A DNA stretch of 64,000 bases, taken from NCBI RefSeq assembly GCF_004570975.1, contig NZ_SPPC01000001.1:310001-374000 (forward strand). The letters run 5' to 3'. Source of the stretch: Barnesiella sp. WM24 (GTDB taxonomy: Bacteria; Bacteroidota; Bacteroidia; Bacteroidales; Muribaculaceae). Shown here in pieces: positions 47,530-63,989 of this stretch. Positions within the stretch are counted from its first letter, which is position 1; the number at the start of each line of letters is the position of its first letter. Below the pieces are notes generated by a model, which was not told the origin of the DNA, searched no databases, and worked only from the letters and a program-made list of their open reading frames with translations. The position numbers and the translations under genes are program-made.

Positions 47530-48854
47530 GTCGATATGCCGAATTTTTCCATGCGACGGTAAAGTGCCTGCCGGCTTATGCCAAGCTGCGACGCTGCAGC
47601 CGACAGATTGCCGCCACTCTTGGCAAGCGCATTCTCAATAGCCGCCTTCTCTATATCCTCAAGGCTTCCCGAGGCGGCTACGGAAGCCACGGTCATATCG
47701 GGGGCAAATGACGACGCACTGCGAAACGCTCGCCCGTCAAGCACCGGCGACTGACTGATAATCATCGTGCGTTCAACAAGATTTTTCAGTTCGCGGATGT
47801 TGCCCGGATAAGGAAGCCCTGACAGATAATCGACGGCGTCGTCAGTAATGTCGGGCATCGCCATGCGGTTTGCCTTGCTGAACTGACGGGCAAAGTGGGC
47901 GACAAGCTCCGGGATGTCCTCTTTACGGTCCCTCAGCGGCGGGAGCGTGACAGTTATAAGGCTTATGCGGTAAAACAGGTCCTCACGGAAAGTGCGGTCA
48001 GCGACCATCGCGGAAAGGTCGGCATTGGTCGCACACACGACACGTATATCGACCTTGCGAGGGACACTGTCGCCAAGCACCTCAAACGTGTGTTCCTGCA
48101 ACACACGCAGCAGTTTTACCTGGGAGTTGACGTCAAGTTCACCTATCTCATCGAGAAATATAGTGCCCTTGTCGGCAACAGCAAAGCGTCCTTCACGGTC
48201 GGCGGCAGCTCCTGTAAACGCGCCCTTTTTATGACCAAACATCTCGCTCTCGAAAAGGGAGCGGGAGATTCCGCCAAGATTCACCTTTACAAACGGAGCC
48301 CCGTTGCGGCGACTGTTGGCATGCAGGGTCTCCGCGACAAGTTCCTTGCCGGTGCCGTTTTCACCCATTATCAGTACAGGCGCGTCAGTAGCAGCCACGC
48401 GCCTCACTGTGTCAAGGACGCTCATCAGAGCCGGCGACGACCCGATAATGCGGGAGCGGTCAAACTCTCCTGCATCAGTCTTGCCGCCCGTCATATTGAT
48501 AGCAGCCTCAATGCGTCCGAGAAGCGCCCGGTTGTCCCAGGGCTTGGTGATAAAATCAAACGCCCCTGCGCGAATCCCCTCCACAGCGAGAGGTATGCTC
48601 CCCCATGCCGTCATCAAAATGACCGGAACATCGGGGTGAAATATCTTTATCTGCCTCAACAGGGTAAGCCCCTCGTCGCCGGTTGTGGCACGCGAAAAAT
48701 TCATGTCGAGCAACACAAGCTGCGGCGCAGCCTGCCTCACCACAGCCATCGCCTCGGCGGGACCGGCCACAGCCTTGACTTCATAACCGCCCTTCCGCAA
48801 AAGCATGGAGAGCGACAGTCTTATGGCATTGTCATCATCGACTATGAGTATCAT
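47526..48854 (-). CDS. Sigma-54-dependent response regulator (NtrC family)
   Basis: 442 aa from the ATG at 48854 (MILIVDDDNAIRLSLSMLL). The receiver domain has phospho-acceptor Asp50 (LVLLDMNF). The AAA+ domain has GENGTGKE (Walker A), the sigma-54 contact loop GAFTGA, and the DEIGELD Walker B. A C-terminal Fis-type HTH (NLSAAASQLGISRQALYRRM) completes the canonical layout. Located in the same operon as the efflux genes, whose first gene has a -24/-12 promoter and GGAC/GTCC repeats, so it very likely activates its own operon. Confidence 0.94.
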   Translation of the reverse strand: MILIVDDDNAIRLSLSMLLRKGGYEVKAVAGPAEAMAVVRQAAPQLVLLDMNFSRATTGDEGLTLLRQIKIFHPDVPVILMTAWGSIPLAVEGIRAGAFDFITKPWDNRALLGRIEAAINMTGGKTDAGEFDRSRIIGSSPALMSVLDTVRRVAATDAPVLIMGENGTGKELVAETLHANSRRNGAPFVKVNLGGISRSLFESEMFGHKKGAFTGAAADREGRFAVADKGTIFLDEIGELDVNSQVKLLRVLQEHTFEVLGDSVPRKVDIRVVCATNADLSAMVADRTFREDLFYRISLITVTLPPLRDRKEDIPELVAHFARQFSKANRMAMPDITDDAVDYLSGLPYPGNIRELKNLVERTMIISQSPVLDGRAFRSASSFAPDMTVASVAASGSLEDIEKAAIENALAKSGGNLSAAASQLGISRQALYRRMEKFGIST

Positions 48855-59841: not shown

Positions 59842-59926
59842 GGAGAGGTGGCAGAGTGGTCGATTGCGGCGGTCTTGAAAACCGTTGAGGGTCACACCTC
59901 CGGGGGTTCGAATCCCTCCCTCTCCG
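59842..59926 (+). tRNA. tRNA-Ser (anticodon UGA)
   Basis: The acceptor stem GGAGAGG pairs with CCTCTCC, discriminator G. The anticodon arm is GCGGT-CTTGAAA-ACCGT with TGA in the centre. A long variable arm (GAGG...CCTC) marks a class II tRNA, and the T-loop TTCGAAT is present. CCA is not encoded. Phage genes begin immediately beyond it, so its 3' end is a likely integration target. Confidence 0.95.
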
Positions 59927-59931
59927 CTTCT

Positions 59932-60063: not shown

Positions 60064-60681
60064 TTATTTACCTTTGGCGGCCCGGTGCATCTTTATCGCC
60101 ACCTTCAAGCCGATAATTATCGCGTAGACACAGAACACGCCGACGACTGCCAAATATAGCCAATCCCAAATAGTGGTCTTTGGCTTTTCCTCGGTCTTGG
60201 TGTCGGTATCTTTCTTCGCTTCGGCGTTGATGTCCTGTTTTTCCGTGTCGTCTTCGGTAGTGGTTCGGTCGGCCTGTGCTTCCGTCCGGCTTTGCTCGTT
60301 TTTCTCCCCGTTAAGAACTGCCCGGCCTTTCGTGATGCTTTTCACGTTGGGGGGCTTCGCCTTCTCCCCGTTCTCGGAAGCGGTAGCGGCTATTACTGTA
60401 TTAAGCCAATCCGGGGCCGTACTGTCGTTAGGGAATGAAGGGAAGCCGCCGGGGTAAAACTCCACCGTTGTAAAATCTACTACCACGTTCCGGCGTTCGT
60501 CGGTCGTTATGTTGGTAATTATCCCCGCCTTCTCTATAGATCCGGCGTGGTGTTGTTTCTCGGTCGTCGCCGTAAACTGCGCTTCGGCCTGGGTGTTGGT
60601 CGCCGTCGCCTTCCGGCTCGTCGTACAGGCGGACGCGAAAAGCGCAAGCACAACTATAAGAATTTGGGCTACTCGGTTCAT
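60064..60681 (-). CDS. Unimolecular-spanin-like phage lipoprotein
   Basis: 205 aa. The N-terminus is a lipoprotein signal ending in LFASAC (Cys19), and the C-terminus carries one membrane helix ([23 protein letters not shown]) followed by a short basic tail. An outer-membrane lipid anchor at one end and an inner-membrane helix at the other, joined by a long Thr/Glu/Lys-rich periplasmic stretch, is the layout of u-spanins (for example phage T1 gp11), which fuse the two membranes in the last step of lysis. Its ATG overlaps the endolysin stop (ATGA), which fits a lysis cassette. Assignment rests on topology and position, not on sequence similarity. Confidence 0.65.
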
Positions 60682-61250
60682 ACGTCGGGGAAGGTTATTG
60701 TTTTTTCGGGGTTGGTGTTGTGGGTAAGACTTCCGTACTTAATACGGTTAAGACGCTTAAGCCATCCGTTCCCAAATCGCTTTTGCGAAGGGTTGGCGGC
60801 TACGATGCCTTCAATGAAGGCGACGCGGGCGGCTTTTATCCTGTCGAACAGGGCGCGGGGGTTCCGCGCGTTAAGGGCGGCTAAGGTCTTTTCGCCTACA
60901 ATGCCGTCCACCTTCACGCCGAGAAGGGCCTGAACCTTCGTTATTCCGTGCTTGCCGGAAGCCCATACCCAATCGACGACAATGTTAGCGACTGACTGCG
61001 ACGCTATGCGGTCGGCTTTCCACCGGTTCCAATAGTGCGGACGCATTACGCGCTCTATTGCGTCGGTGTCGGTTATCTTCTTGAGGTCGTCTACGTCTAT
61101 ATCGCCGTCGCCGTCCTTATCGTAGCCAACTTGTCGCCACGTTGCAATAGTTACTCCTTTGTTGGTCGCTCCGCCCCGGTCGTAGGGGTCGTTTACAAAC
61201 CCGCCTTCGTGCGACAAAATGAAGGGGGCTAATACTGCTAAATTTGCCAT
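60678..61250 (-). CDS. Phage endolysin, GH108 lysozyme
   Basis: 190 aa muramidase. The N-terminal GH108 motif [25 protein letters not shown] contains the catalytic Glu15; the C-terminal part ([23 protein letters not shown]) is the peptidoglycan-binding domain that accompanies GH108. [11 protein letters not shown] stretch in the middle looks like a calcium-binding loop. No signal peptide, so release depends on a holin. It lies 14 bases downstream of the membrane protein gene and overlaps the spanin gene. Confidence 0.92.
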
Positions 61251-61885: not shown

Positions 61886-62308
61886 TTAGTACCCGGCCCC
61901 GGCGAGGTCAACTTTGACCATTGCCTTAATCTCGGCTACTCGGCGAAGGTGCGCGGTATAGGCGGCTTCCGCCTTTTCTGCTTCCTCGTCTTCAAGTAGC
62001 CCGGCGCGGGCGGCGTTGTAGTCGTTAATCAGTCCGAACTCTTCCGTTTCCGAAACTTCGGCACGAATGACGGCGCGGGTAAGGTCTTTGTAGTTGGGCG
62101 TTCCCCACACTTCCACGGTGTCGTAGTCATAGACTATCCGGGGGCTGACTATGTTAACGGCGGTGTCTGTTCCGTCCGGGGTTTCGTCGTCGGACTGAGC
62201 CACGGGTTCGGGTTCTTGGGTTCGGGCGGCTACGTTATAATTGTAGTGGTACGCGCCATTTCCGAGCGGCAAAATTGCCGCCGGCCTAACGTCTGAATTT
62301 GATTTCAT
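61886..62308 (-). CDS. Phage protein, unknown, next to the reverse transcriptase
   Basis: 140 aa, acidic, no membrane segment. It overlaps the 3' end of the reverse transcriptase gene by 23 bases in another frame, which points to coupled translation. The start (RPAAILPLGNGAYHYNYNV) is beta-like; the middle is negatively charged and Pro-rich; the C-terminal half (about 75-135) is predicted helical (GLLEDEEAEKAEAAYTAHLRRVAEIK). It could be an accessory protein of the retroelement, but it does not look like the four-helix Avd family. Confidence 0.7.
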   Translation of the reverse strand: MKSNSDVRPAAILPLGNGAYHYNYNVAARTQEPEPVAQSDDETPDGTDTAVNIVSPRIVYDYDTVEVWGTPNYKDLTRAVIRAEVSETEEFGLINDYNAARAGLLEDEEAEKAEAAYTAHLRRVAEIKAMVKVDLAGAGY

Positions 62309-63284
62309 ACGGGCTTATTTTATTAAGTTGGTTAATTAAGTATTGGCTATCGCTGTATTTAAGCCAACCCCACCACGGCGCAATAGCCTGTAAGAAGTCT
62401 TTCCGGGATATAGGGTTCTTGGCTTTCCTTAACTTCGCTATCTTCCTACAAAGGGCTTGTTTTATACCTTTCCTTATCCGTGTTTCGTTAAGGTAGAAGA
62501 CAAAGCCTAAAAAGTCTATGCCCCGGCCGTGTTTGTCGCTTCGGTCTAAGGCTACGGGGAATATTTGCTTATTCCTCTTTACCTCTATCCGTAGTTCTAC
62601 GGTAGAGTATCCCTCAATCTCCTTTAACAAACGGTGCAAAAACTCTTTATCGTTAGAAAGTATAATAAAGTCGTCGGCGTAGTTTATCAGCCACTTCGCG
62701 CCCATCTTCTCCTTAAGCCTGTGGCAAAGGTAGGTTATATAAAGGTTGGCGAAGTACGGACTTATAGGGCTACCCAGCATTACCCCTTCTTCGCTGTCTA
62801 TAATAGCGTCTAAATACCGAAGTATCTGTTTGTCCTTGATGCTCCTACGAACTAACGCCTTTAATACGTCGTGCTTTATCGTAGGGTAGAATTTCCGCAT
62901 ATCGAACTTAAGACAATACACCCGGCCGCTTTTGCGGGCTTCCTGTATGAAGCTGCGCGTTCTTAGTGCTGCCGGAAGCTGCCCGCGTTTCCTAATGCCG
63001 CAGTAACTATCGGCTATAAATACCTTATCCCAAATCGGGCGAAGTATCAACAACAGGGCGCGATGTATTATCTTGTCGGGGTTTTCGGGTAGAATGGTTA
63101 ACAGTCGTTCCTTACCGTCGTTTATGGTTATATTATAAGCGTCTGACGGTTGGAACTCGTCGCTATGAAGCAAAGCGCACACTTTCGCCGTGTTTTCGGG
63201 CTTATAGTGGTCGGACATACGGGCGGCGCGTTCTATGTTGTCCGCGTCGCTGAAACTGCCGAATAAATTACCGTGTCTTTTCAC
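62286..63284 (-). CDS. Reverse transcriptase, DGR-like
   Basis: 332 aa with start GTG at 63284 (the first ATG, at 63215, would drop the conserved KRHGNLF start). Motifs in order: KERLLTILPENPDKIIHRALL, KFDMRKFYPTI (catalytic Asp128), GVMLGSPISPYFANLYITYL (motif 4), NYADDFIILS (Asp204-Asp205), RGIDFLGFVFY. Overall length and motif spacing match diversity-generating retroelement RTs, and no maturase, endonuclease or retron ncRNA is seen. Motif 4 has SP where DGR enzymes usually have SQ. A template-repeat-like segment lies 133 bases upstream. The stop is TAG. Confidence 0.88.
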   Translation of the reverse strand: MKRHGNLFGSFSDADNIERAARMSDHYKPENTAKVCALLHSDEFQPSDAYNITINDGKERLLTILPENPDKIIHRALLLILRPIWDKVFIADSYCGIRKRGQLPAALRTRSFIQEARKSGRVYCLKFDMRKFYPTIKHDVLKALVRRSIKDKQILRYLDAIIDSEEGVMLGSPISPYFANLYITYLCHRLKEKMGAKWLINYADDFIILSNDKEFLHRLLKEIEGYSTVELRIEVKRNKQIFPVALDRSDKHGRGIDFLGFVFYLNETRIRKGIKQALCRKIAKLRKAKNPISRKDFLQAIAPWWGWLKYSDSQYLINQLNKISPYEIKFRR

Positions 63285-63416
63285 TTCTTTTATTGCTTTG
63301 CTGATTACTTGGCGTTCTTCGGCGCAAGCCTACCAAAAGCCAATAATTATTACTATTTTTCGCCAAGAGGCGGGGTCTTTGCCATTTCAAGTTATAAGCC
63401 CTTATTTCTAAGGTTA

Positions 63417-63554
63417 TCAGTAATTCCGAGAGCCGATGTTCGCATTCGTATTCGAAGCCGCGTTGTTCGTATTCGCATACGAAAGCCCGGCATTCGCGCC
63501 GTTATTCGCGTTCCCGCCGAACAAAACGCCCGTAGGCAAACAACCCAATTCGTT
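63417..63554 (-). repeat. DGR template repeat (TR), non-coding
   Basis: Read on the minus strand, one frame is open from the TAA of the upstream gene to TGA at 63417-63419, but has no start codon. It would encode an Asn-rich string with segments such as GGNANNGANAGLSY and NTNNAASNTNANIGSR. These AAC/AAT-dense codons and the NNA-SN-N-NIG pattern are typical of DGR template repeats, whose adenines are mutated on transfer into a variable repeat. The densest part is about 63438-63518. A small hairpin (CCTTA-GAAA-TAAGG) follows it. No matching variable repeat is seen elsewhere in the window. Confidence 0.78.
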
Positions 63555-63989
63555 TTATTCAAAGTAGTAGCGCGTACCCGAAGCCCTCATAGTGACTTTT
63601 CGCGGGAAGGCGTTACGCTTCTTAATCTCACGAAGAACGTATTTTATTTCGGTGGAATTGGTAAAGAACTTTTCCACTTGGCCCGGCTTGTCAGGGCTGT
63701 TGTCCGGGTGCTTTATCTTCACTAAGAAGCGTTCGTTTCCGAACTTTGTTTTTACTCCGTCGATGAAGTCAAGCACAAGGAAGGAAAGGTTTATTAGTTT
63801 TTGCTACGTGGTTTCGCGGCAGTTGAACTGCTTGTTTGTTTCGTCCTGTGGAATGTTCAAGAAGGCGAGGCTTCCGTCGTCTTCTACTGTGGGCTTGGTG
63901 TTGTAGTCGCTCATCGCTATTTCGTGTTTAGTTCTTGCTACCCATTGGCGTAATGCTCTGTCGGCTTGTCGCAAAGGGTCTATTTCCAT
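63555..63989 (-). pseudogene. Phage protein gene interrupted by an in-frame TAG
   Basis: One frame runs from ATG 63989 to TAA 63555 with a single TAG at 63804-63806. The upstream part is 61 aa (start MEIDPLRQADRALRQWVART; an internal ATG begins MSDYNTKPTVEDDG). The downstream part has no ATG start and is protein-like from the codon after TAG (QKLINLSFLVLDFIDGVKTK), with ERFLVKIKHPDN and KKRNAFPRKVTM, in the style of an OB-fold DNA-binding domain. A GTG at 63776 could start a separate 73-aa protein but would remove the first beta strand. Options are a nonsense-mutated gene, amber readthrough, or two genes. Confidence 0.5.

Follow-up and report, generated by a model that had tools for sequence, protein, structure and literature searches.

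The window is a stretch of 64,000 nucleotides from Barnesiella sp. WM24. Its right-hand end falls within a diversity-generating retroelement (DGR) of BPP-1-like type, part of a ~48.5 kb prophage that adjoins a tRNA-Ser gene. We are confident that the best overall explanation is a prophage DGR in which one template serves two targets, with target 2 acting as an intracellular binder. That the DGR has two targets is almost certain. An intracellular, non-virion role for target 2 is probable, given where its gene lies and that, on each side of arrays of related genes, the 25 commonest families of neighbours include none for tail or lysis.

One template repeat and its two variable repeats

Phage genes run from the tRNA-Ser gene through to the contig end, and the tRNA gene is probably the attachment site of the prophage (Table 1). 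An IMG/VR record of 48,531 bases has a target-2 gene that is 100% identical and a reverse transcriptase (RT) of equal score, and on both grounds it probably represents this same prophage. From the tRNA and attachment site inward, the order is a small gene, the endolysin, two small genes, the RT, the template repeat (TR), an accessory gene, and a tail gene bearing a variable repeat (VR). This resembles the BPP-1 DGR (mtd/TR/avd/brt), where an endolysin, two small genes, RT, TR and accessory gene likewise lead up to a tail gene with a VR at its 3' end and the prophage end also lies at a tRNA. The preliminary description had named lysis genes as neighbours of the RT; the endolysin bears this out, whereas in domain and PHROG profile searches nothing matched the 205-aa ORF at 60064-60681 at an E below 0.009.

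Table 1. Features of the DGR and of the adjoining prophage end. Positions given without a contig are those of the window; C11 is the contig of the window in the Barnesiella genome, G000.
Feature	Position	Strand	Description
tRNA-Ser (TGA)	59842..59927	+	prophage end
Endolysin	60678..61250	-	GH108 E=2.4e-23; phrog_315 E=2.4e-36; same place in gene order as BPP-1 endolysin
DGR reverse transcriptase	62286..63284	-	332 aa, GTG start; motif 4 LGSPISP, catalytic YADD
Template repeat	63419..63530	-	112 bases, 27 A; between RT and accessory gene
Accessory gene, BPP-1 avd position	63555..63989	-	phrog_19665 relative
VR1	G000:C11:374096-374207 (= window 64096-64207)		112 bases; 96 bases past window end
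Target gene 1	C11:374079-375491	-	470 aa as longest ORF; tail protein, PHROG 5302 E=1.2e-134
VR2	G000:C11:410625-410708		84 bases; 37 kb away
Target gene 2	C11:410545-411120	-	191 aa; phrog_11581 E=6.5e-33, residues 32-188 of 191

Upstream of the RT on the same strand lies a segment that is start-less, stop-bounded and rich in Asn codons, and that reads ...GVLFGGNANNGANAGLSYANTNNAASNTNANIGSRNY up to its stop. The preliminary description had proposed it as a template repeat, and two repeats that differ from it at A only do match it. Besides itself, the segment had these BLAST matches in the 40 contigs (3.49 Mb) of the genome: C11:374103-374207, C11:410632-410708, a 75% match on C8, which is a second template, and five short matches at E=5.74. 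All the differences between VR1 and the template fall on template adenines (16/16; hypergeometric p=1.4e-12). The same holds for VR2 (15/15; hypergeometric p=1.2e-11), with no non-A mismatch over its whole length. Three differences of each VR fall in the 3' end common to both and may be fixed; with this shared end left out, 13/13 differences of VR1 (p=1.8e-10) and 12/12 of VR2 (p=1.4e-9) are on A. A chance repeat and an effect of base composition are both ruled out by the A-only pattern and the controls.

VR1 and VR2 have GGCTCTCGGCTTTGCTT in common, and the end of the template differs there, a relation that would correspond to an IMH in the VRs and an IMH*-like end in the template. The pattern recurs on C8 and C2, where each VR pair shares a 3' end unlike that of its template. 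No stem-loop (perfect stem of at least 7, loop of 3-8) was found in the 120 bases beyond either VR1 or VR2. If BPP-1 biology is a guide, the RT would copy template RNA into cDNA, making errors at adenines, and this cDNA would replace those VRs that bear a matching 3' initiation sequence, giving mutagenic retrohoming into both targets.

VR1 lies at the 3' end of target gene 1, and the variable gene is thus where the preliminary description had looked for it, to the right of the window, in the form of a near-copy on the contig that differs at template adenines. Because target 1 is a tail protein, its diversification plausibly retunes host adsorption. Target 1 had no match at E<=0.1 among PDB sequences. 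The expectation of a single variable target was correct as to the tail gene and incomplete, since a second target lies among DNA-metabolism genes. Next to the gene for target 2 is an HU-like gene, with genes for a metal-dependent hydrolase and an SbcC-like protein nearby. VR2 sits within the gene rather than at its end, and a conserved tail of ~25 residues follows the hypervariable patch. The repeat region of target 2 weakly matches PHROGs 5302 (tail) and 14959, which may reflect the shared repeat alone.

The reverse transcriptase and the accessory gene

Taken with a short upstream extension, the window RT matched RVT_1 at E=4e-19 and phrog_1423 (reverse transcriptase) at E=5.8e-81, the same PHROG that BPP-1 brt matches. 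A 26-row tree grouped the window RT, BPP-1 brt and the RTs of the arrays described below in one clade (support 100/97); the group II intron RTs (4) and the retron RTs (5) fell elsewhere. The identification of a DGR-type RT in the preliminary description is thereby upheld, and a group II intron or retron identity is ruled out by the tree. In the same tree, the C2 and C4 RTs of this genome are long branches of unsure placement. The C4 enzyme (G000:C4:29512-30312; E=9.7e-34), the fourth PHROG 1423 RT of the genome, falls outside the BPP-1 group. Among PDB structures, the window RT best matched the 328-aa reverse transcriptase 8ub7 (E=2.1e-18), with a group II RT next (4.3e-18); BPP-1 brt has the same length of 328 aa, and we take 8ub7 to be the BPP-1 enzyme. 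The best NCBIfam match, TIGR04416, was below its cut-off (120.7 of 300 bits), and many PADLOC RT models matched weakly.

The window RT departs in motif 4 from the usual DGR form, (I/V/L)GxxxSQ, and differs in this LGxxxSP motif from BPP-1, as the DGR does in its distant second target. LGxxxSP is also present in the RTs of three relatives (L101-L103), and IGxxxSQ in 92 of the 95 array RT clusters. According to the available text of PMC3521204, the last two motif residues vary in 15 of 155 elements, SP is among the variants, and adenine exchanges are present in them; SP is therefore no bar to DGR membership. Excerpts of PMC11054128 report a GxxxSP motif in the crAssE-Sib DGR of epsilon crAss-like phages, which the myDGR program missed; unlike the present DGR, it belongs to a different phage group and has a target described as receptor-binding. 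Detectors based on SQ might overlook the group of RTs with LGxxxSP.

In contrast to BPP-1, whose Avd belongs to PHROG 3206, this DGR has an interrupted gene of the phrog_19665 type in the avd position. BPP-1 Avd gave no phmmer match at 1e-3 among ORFs of at least 60 aa in the fetched viral, genome and RT loci. The interruption is an in-frame amber codon at 63804-63806 (minus strand), and the pieces on both sides of it match PHROG 19665. Amber recoding is not supported as the cause of this TAG, since a sense codon stands at the site in six close relatives, of which two are almost the same. TAG ends 7 of the 50 chosen ORFs of at least 100 aa in the stretch. Because of the premature stop, this copy of the DGR may be impaired. 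Among 116 array loci, accessory genes of the phrog_19665 type were recognised in 20, after the RT in 17 and before it in 3, and PHROG 19665 is a candidate accessory protein of these DGRs. A PHROG 19665 gene was seen beside the RT in L051, L067, L152, L055 and others.

The family of target 2 in other phages and genomes

For three of the four PHROG 1423 RTs in the genome, those on C11, C8 and C2, a phrog_11581 gene is found on the same contig. On C8, the RT-side target is a PHROG 5302 tail protein adjoining the RT (13/15 differences at A), and the second target is a phrog_11581 gene near genes for RecT, a hydrolase and a replisome organizer (14/15 at A). On C2, the RT-side target is a 2729-aa protein (PHROG 14959, with a weak tail match; 13/13 at A), and the second is a phrog_11581 gene near a primase gene, with 10/10 differences at A over an ungapped 86 bases, a count so restricted because of a six-base gap further on in the repeat. 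This gap relative to the template (G000:C2, about 48287-48376) stands directly before the shared 3' end of the second-target repeat. LoVEphage likewise has one template, a tail-side target and a distal phrog_11581 target, the distal gene being near DUF2400 and methyltransferase genes. The phrog_11581 profile is matched by the homologues on C8 and C2, by that of LoVEphage and by those of two array phages.

We sampled 198 genomes from the same bacterial family, this one included. A gene of the target-2 family (E<=1e-10) was present in 19 and a PHROG 1423 RT (E<=1e-50) in 42, and the RT was found in 15 of the 19 genomes with the gene, against 27 of the 179 others (Fisher p=1.7e-8). The places of gene and RT were fetched for 13 of the 20 matches outside our genome. 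In 11 of these 13 pairs, a template near the RT had its mismatches mostly or all at A (best 10/10, worst 12/15); two of the 11 (G081 and G167) have gene and RT on separate contigs, and two others (G056 and G204) are apparently one phage. In the remaining two same-family pairs, G250 and G158, no A-biased template match was found near the fetched RT.

A search with our target-2 protein gave 44 viral loci, and 27 of the records also code for a PHROG 1423 RT. Of these 27, 25 have a template next to the RT and one or more family genes that match it with 75% or more of the mismatches at A; G028 and G039 fell below this level. For the wider search we used a 5-row alignment, a 13-row alignment having no conserved stretch, and took 68 genome-contig loci and, of 269 viral stretches, the best 80. 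Most genome contigs bear labels, as given in their records, of Bacteroidota groups or Ignavibacteria, with a few Clostridia, Lachnospiraceae and Bacilli MAGs; the viral contigs carry no host label. Over 191 loci, 11 duplicates included, the number of family ORFs recognised with this alignment's profile was two in 112, three in 22, four in 1, one in 53 and none in 3.

With the 11 duplicates dropped, 116 loci combined a DGR-type RT with one or more family genes, 244 such genes in all. For 233 of the 244 genes, from 112 of the 116 loci, there is a match to the template beside the RT in which A accounts for 75% or more of the mismatches; the other 11 fail this test of A-bias. Template matches below E=1e-5, all pooled, have 3216/3395 mismatches at A. 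Within the 233 genes the figure is 3167/3287 against ~872 expected at random, a count conditioned by the choice of these genes for an A-bias of at least 75%; in a control comparing paralogue with paralogue, 28% of differences were at A (1022/3600). Clustering of the RTs on shared 5-mers, which gauged the remaining redundancy, gave 95 clusters, 92 of them positive and 88 with at least two family ORFs. The distance from repeat end to C-terminus had a median of 25 residues and was within 10 residues in 0 of the 233; repeats at C-termini are called typical in the available part of PMC8144416.

Family copies are mostly in tandem beside the RT, and in 241 of 244 cases the family gene is upstream of the RT on its strand, with far-apart pairs of gene and RT under-counted because the fetched loci extend ~10 kb on each side. 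Within the fetched stretches, an A-biased copy outside the recognised family genes was found in 2 of 112 loci, one of them at a contig start. Template searches of the whole records of three array phages recovered 1/2, 0/3 and 0/2 of the repeats already known there. A plasmid search with one array protein gave no match. No Pfam family was found in 102 members of the target-2 family, and no NCBIfam or PADLOC family for the three members searched; against the PDB, the family profile had no credible relative, its best match being at E=0.22.

Natural variation in target 2 was visible among metagenomic relatives, and most clearly in two near-identical pairs of them. Between L038 and L044 the gene differs at 15 sites, all inside the repeat, and the differences between L040 and L046 are likewise confined to the repeat. 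The remaining pairs show no difference at all or have some outside the repeat too, as most of the differing relatives do: L036 and L038 have 17 differences in the repeat and 81 outside it, and L040 and L041 have 15 and 8. Six LoVEphage-type records, two of them alike in the region compared, vary in the repeat at 23 sites, all at template A (23/23; 26 template A in all), and at 16 sites in the remaining 472 bases.

To describe the surroundings of the arrays, we scanned 38 of 75 array loci and took from either flank the closest two ORFs with lengths of 100-700 aa (76 and 76). The 25 commonest of 114 upstream families include PHROG 846 (unknown function; 6), a RecT-like annealing protein (5) and a metal-dependent hydrolase (5), and further an ATPase, DNA methyltransferase, repressor, ParB-like and primase/helicase families. 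Downstream, the 25 commonest of 87 families include PHROG 19665 (11), DNA helicases, a D5-like regulator and HNH endonucleases, with single matches to an exonuclease, an integrase and a terminase. Tail and lysis families were absent from the 25 commonest on either side, the families considered here; rare structural neighbours may occur beyond them.

Possible roles of target 2

Judging by the place of its gene, target 2 would act inside the cell as a binding protein, with a binding face under constant alteration by the phage. Our guess is that its ligands would most likely be variable host or rival-phage proteins, defence factors for example, and a part in counter-defence or exclusion is possible, an assignment that we make tentatively. 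A broader reading, which we consider nearly as apt to hold as to fail, is that phages of Bacteroidota carry DGRs devoted to the phrog_11581 family, with two to three tandem genes, the template and the RT set among DNA-metabolism genes, and that a DGR of the tail module serving one distant gene is a variant of this plan. Such phages would have a self-mutating repertoire of intracellular binders against proteins of the host or of rival phages.

It might be argued that the DGR has the tail gene as its one target and that VR2 is a dead relic, shifted by chance recombination. VR2 is indeed shorter than VR1 and far from the RT, yet it has no non-A mismatch along its length, two pairs of relatives differ in the target-2 gene at 15 sites that are all in the repeat, and the phrog_11581 family is a second target in other phages too. 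We regard this account as very improbable for our prophage, and for the phage group it is largely refuted. An unlikely but less remote alternative is that target 2 is a virion or injected protein, such as a minor tail or capsid-carried one, and that both targets act in host entry. A single template for both makes a shared type of ligand conceivable, the repeat weakly matches a tail PHROG, and DGRs with two C-lec targets in other phages are described in the available text of PMC10743442. Against this stands the setting of the target-2 gene: in our prophage it has HU, SbcC-like and hydrolase genes nearby, on C8 RecT and replisome-organizer genes, on C2 a primase gene, and in LoVEphage DUF2400 and methyltransferase genes. 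Array loci, too, have DNA-metabolism families as neighbours, and on neither side do the 25 commonest families include one for tail or lysis. An intracellular role is the reading that we prefer.

Whether the DGR of this prophage still works is a separate matter. The atypical RT motif and the amber stop that cuts the accessory gene at a codon read as sense in close relatives would fit a decaying element that mutates nothing now. Avd is needed in BPP-1. We find decay doubtful, as DGR RTs with both SP and A exchanges exist (PMC3521204, in the part available), DGR activity was probably recent because the repeats differ from the present template at A only, and the accessory gene may be dispensable because it was recognised in so few of the array loci. 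An intracellular target 2 could also serve in lysogeny control or superinfection exclusion rather than in counter-defence, by binding proteins of rival phages, be they repressors or proteins of partition or replication. The array neighbours include families of repressors and of ParB-like and replication proteins, and tandem copies suggest several simultaneous ligands. To this reading, however, we give a low probability, since PMC8008677 and PMC12629997, in the passages available, report defence-related neighbours instead.

Parts of this design have precedents. The accessible text of PMC8008677 (Benler 2021) describes, for the Quimbyvirus DGR, a structural target and a distal, non-structural one near defence-related genes. 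Quimbyvirus aligns with a Bacteroides dorei prophage, as the same excerpts have it, and LoVEphage is related to the same B. dorei record in those of PMC8525569; by way of this shared prophage, and without an alignment, we infer that the distal ORF of Quimbyvirus is the distal gene of LoVEphage, itself a phrog_11581 homologue of our target 2. Like our DGR, that of Quimbyvirus and LoVEphage has one template with a tail-side and a distal target, theirs near methyltransferase and tRNA ligase genes according to the portion available of PMC8008677. It differs from ours, in which the distal gene has HU, SbcC-like and hydrolase genes nearby and the RT is one ORF.

The two-repeat layout is shared as well by four gut prophage species with a distal second VR near counter-defence genes (PMC12629997), which the available part of that paper describes without a family name for the distal target or tandem arrays; the same text associates 57 of 143 genes of raised dN/dS with DGRs. 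With these reports, distal second targets count as already known; they are in print in Benler 2021 and in a 2025 Nature paper. One template also serves two targets in Bacuni phages (PMC8143477) and in the nd4 and nd12 tentaclin phages (PMC10743442), whose targets, adhesin-like or C-lec in the excerpted descriptions, are set apart from ours by those descriptions. The 24 target clusters of PMC8144416 may well include the target-2 family, unnamed in the text available. A literature search that covered mostly the main texts of freely accessible papers found no account of the target as one family, of tandem cassettes among DNA-metabolism or early-type genes, or of a non-terminal repeat.

Phage DGRs are mostly explained as tropism switches. 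If our reading is true, a conserved, DGR-diversified family stands among the early-type genes of many phages, and targeted hypermutation would then also act after entry. Isolated notes on distal second targets, those for Quimbyvirus and the four gut prophages, would thereby become a definable protein family with a profile and hundreds of natural variants. Short, distant relatives of target 2 with a variable-looking middle were also seen in the crAss-like phages cr109_1 and cr4_1 and in record MT835863 (L017, L018 and L019).
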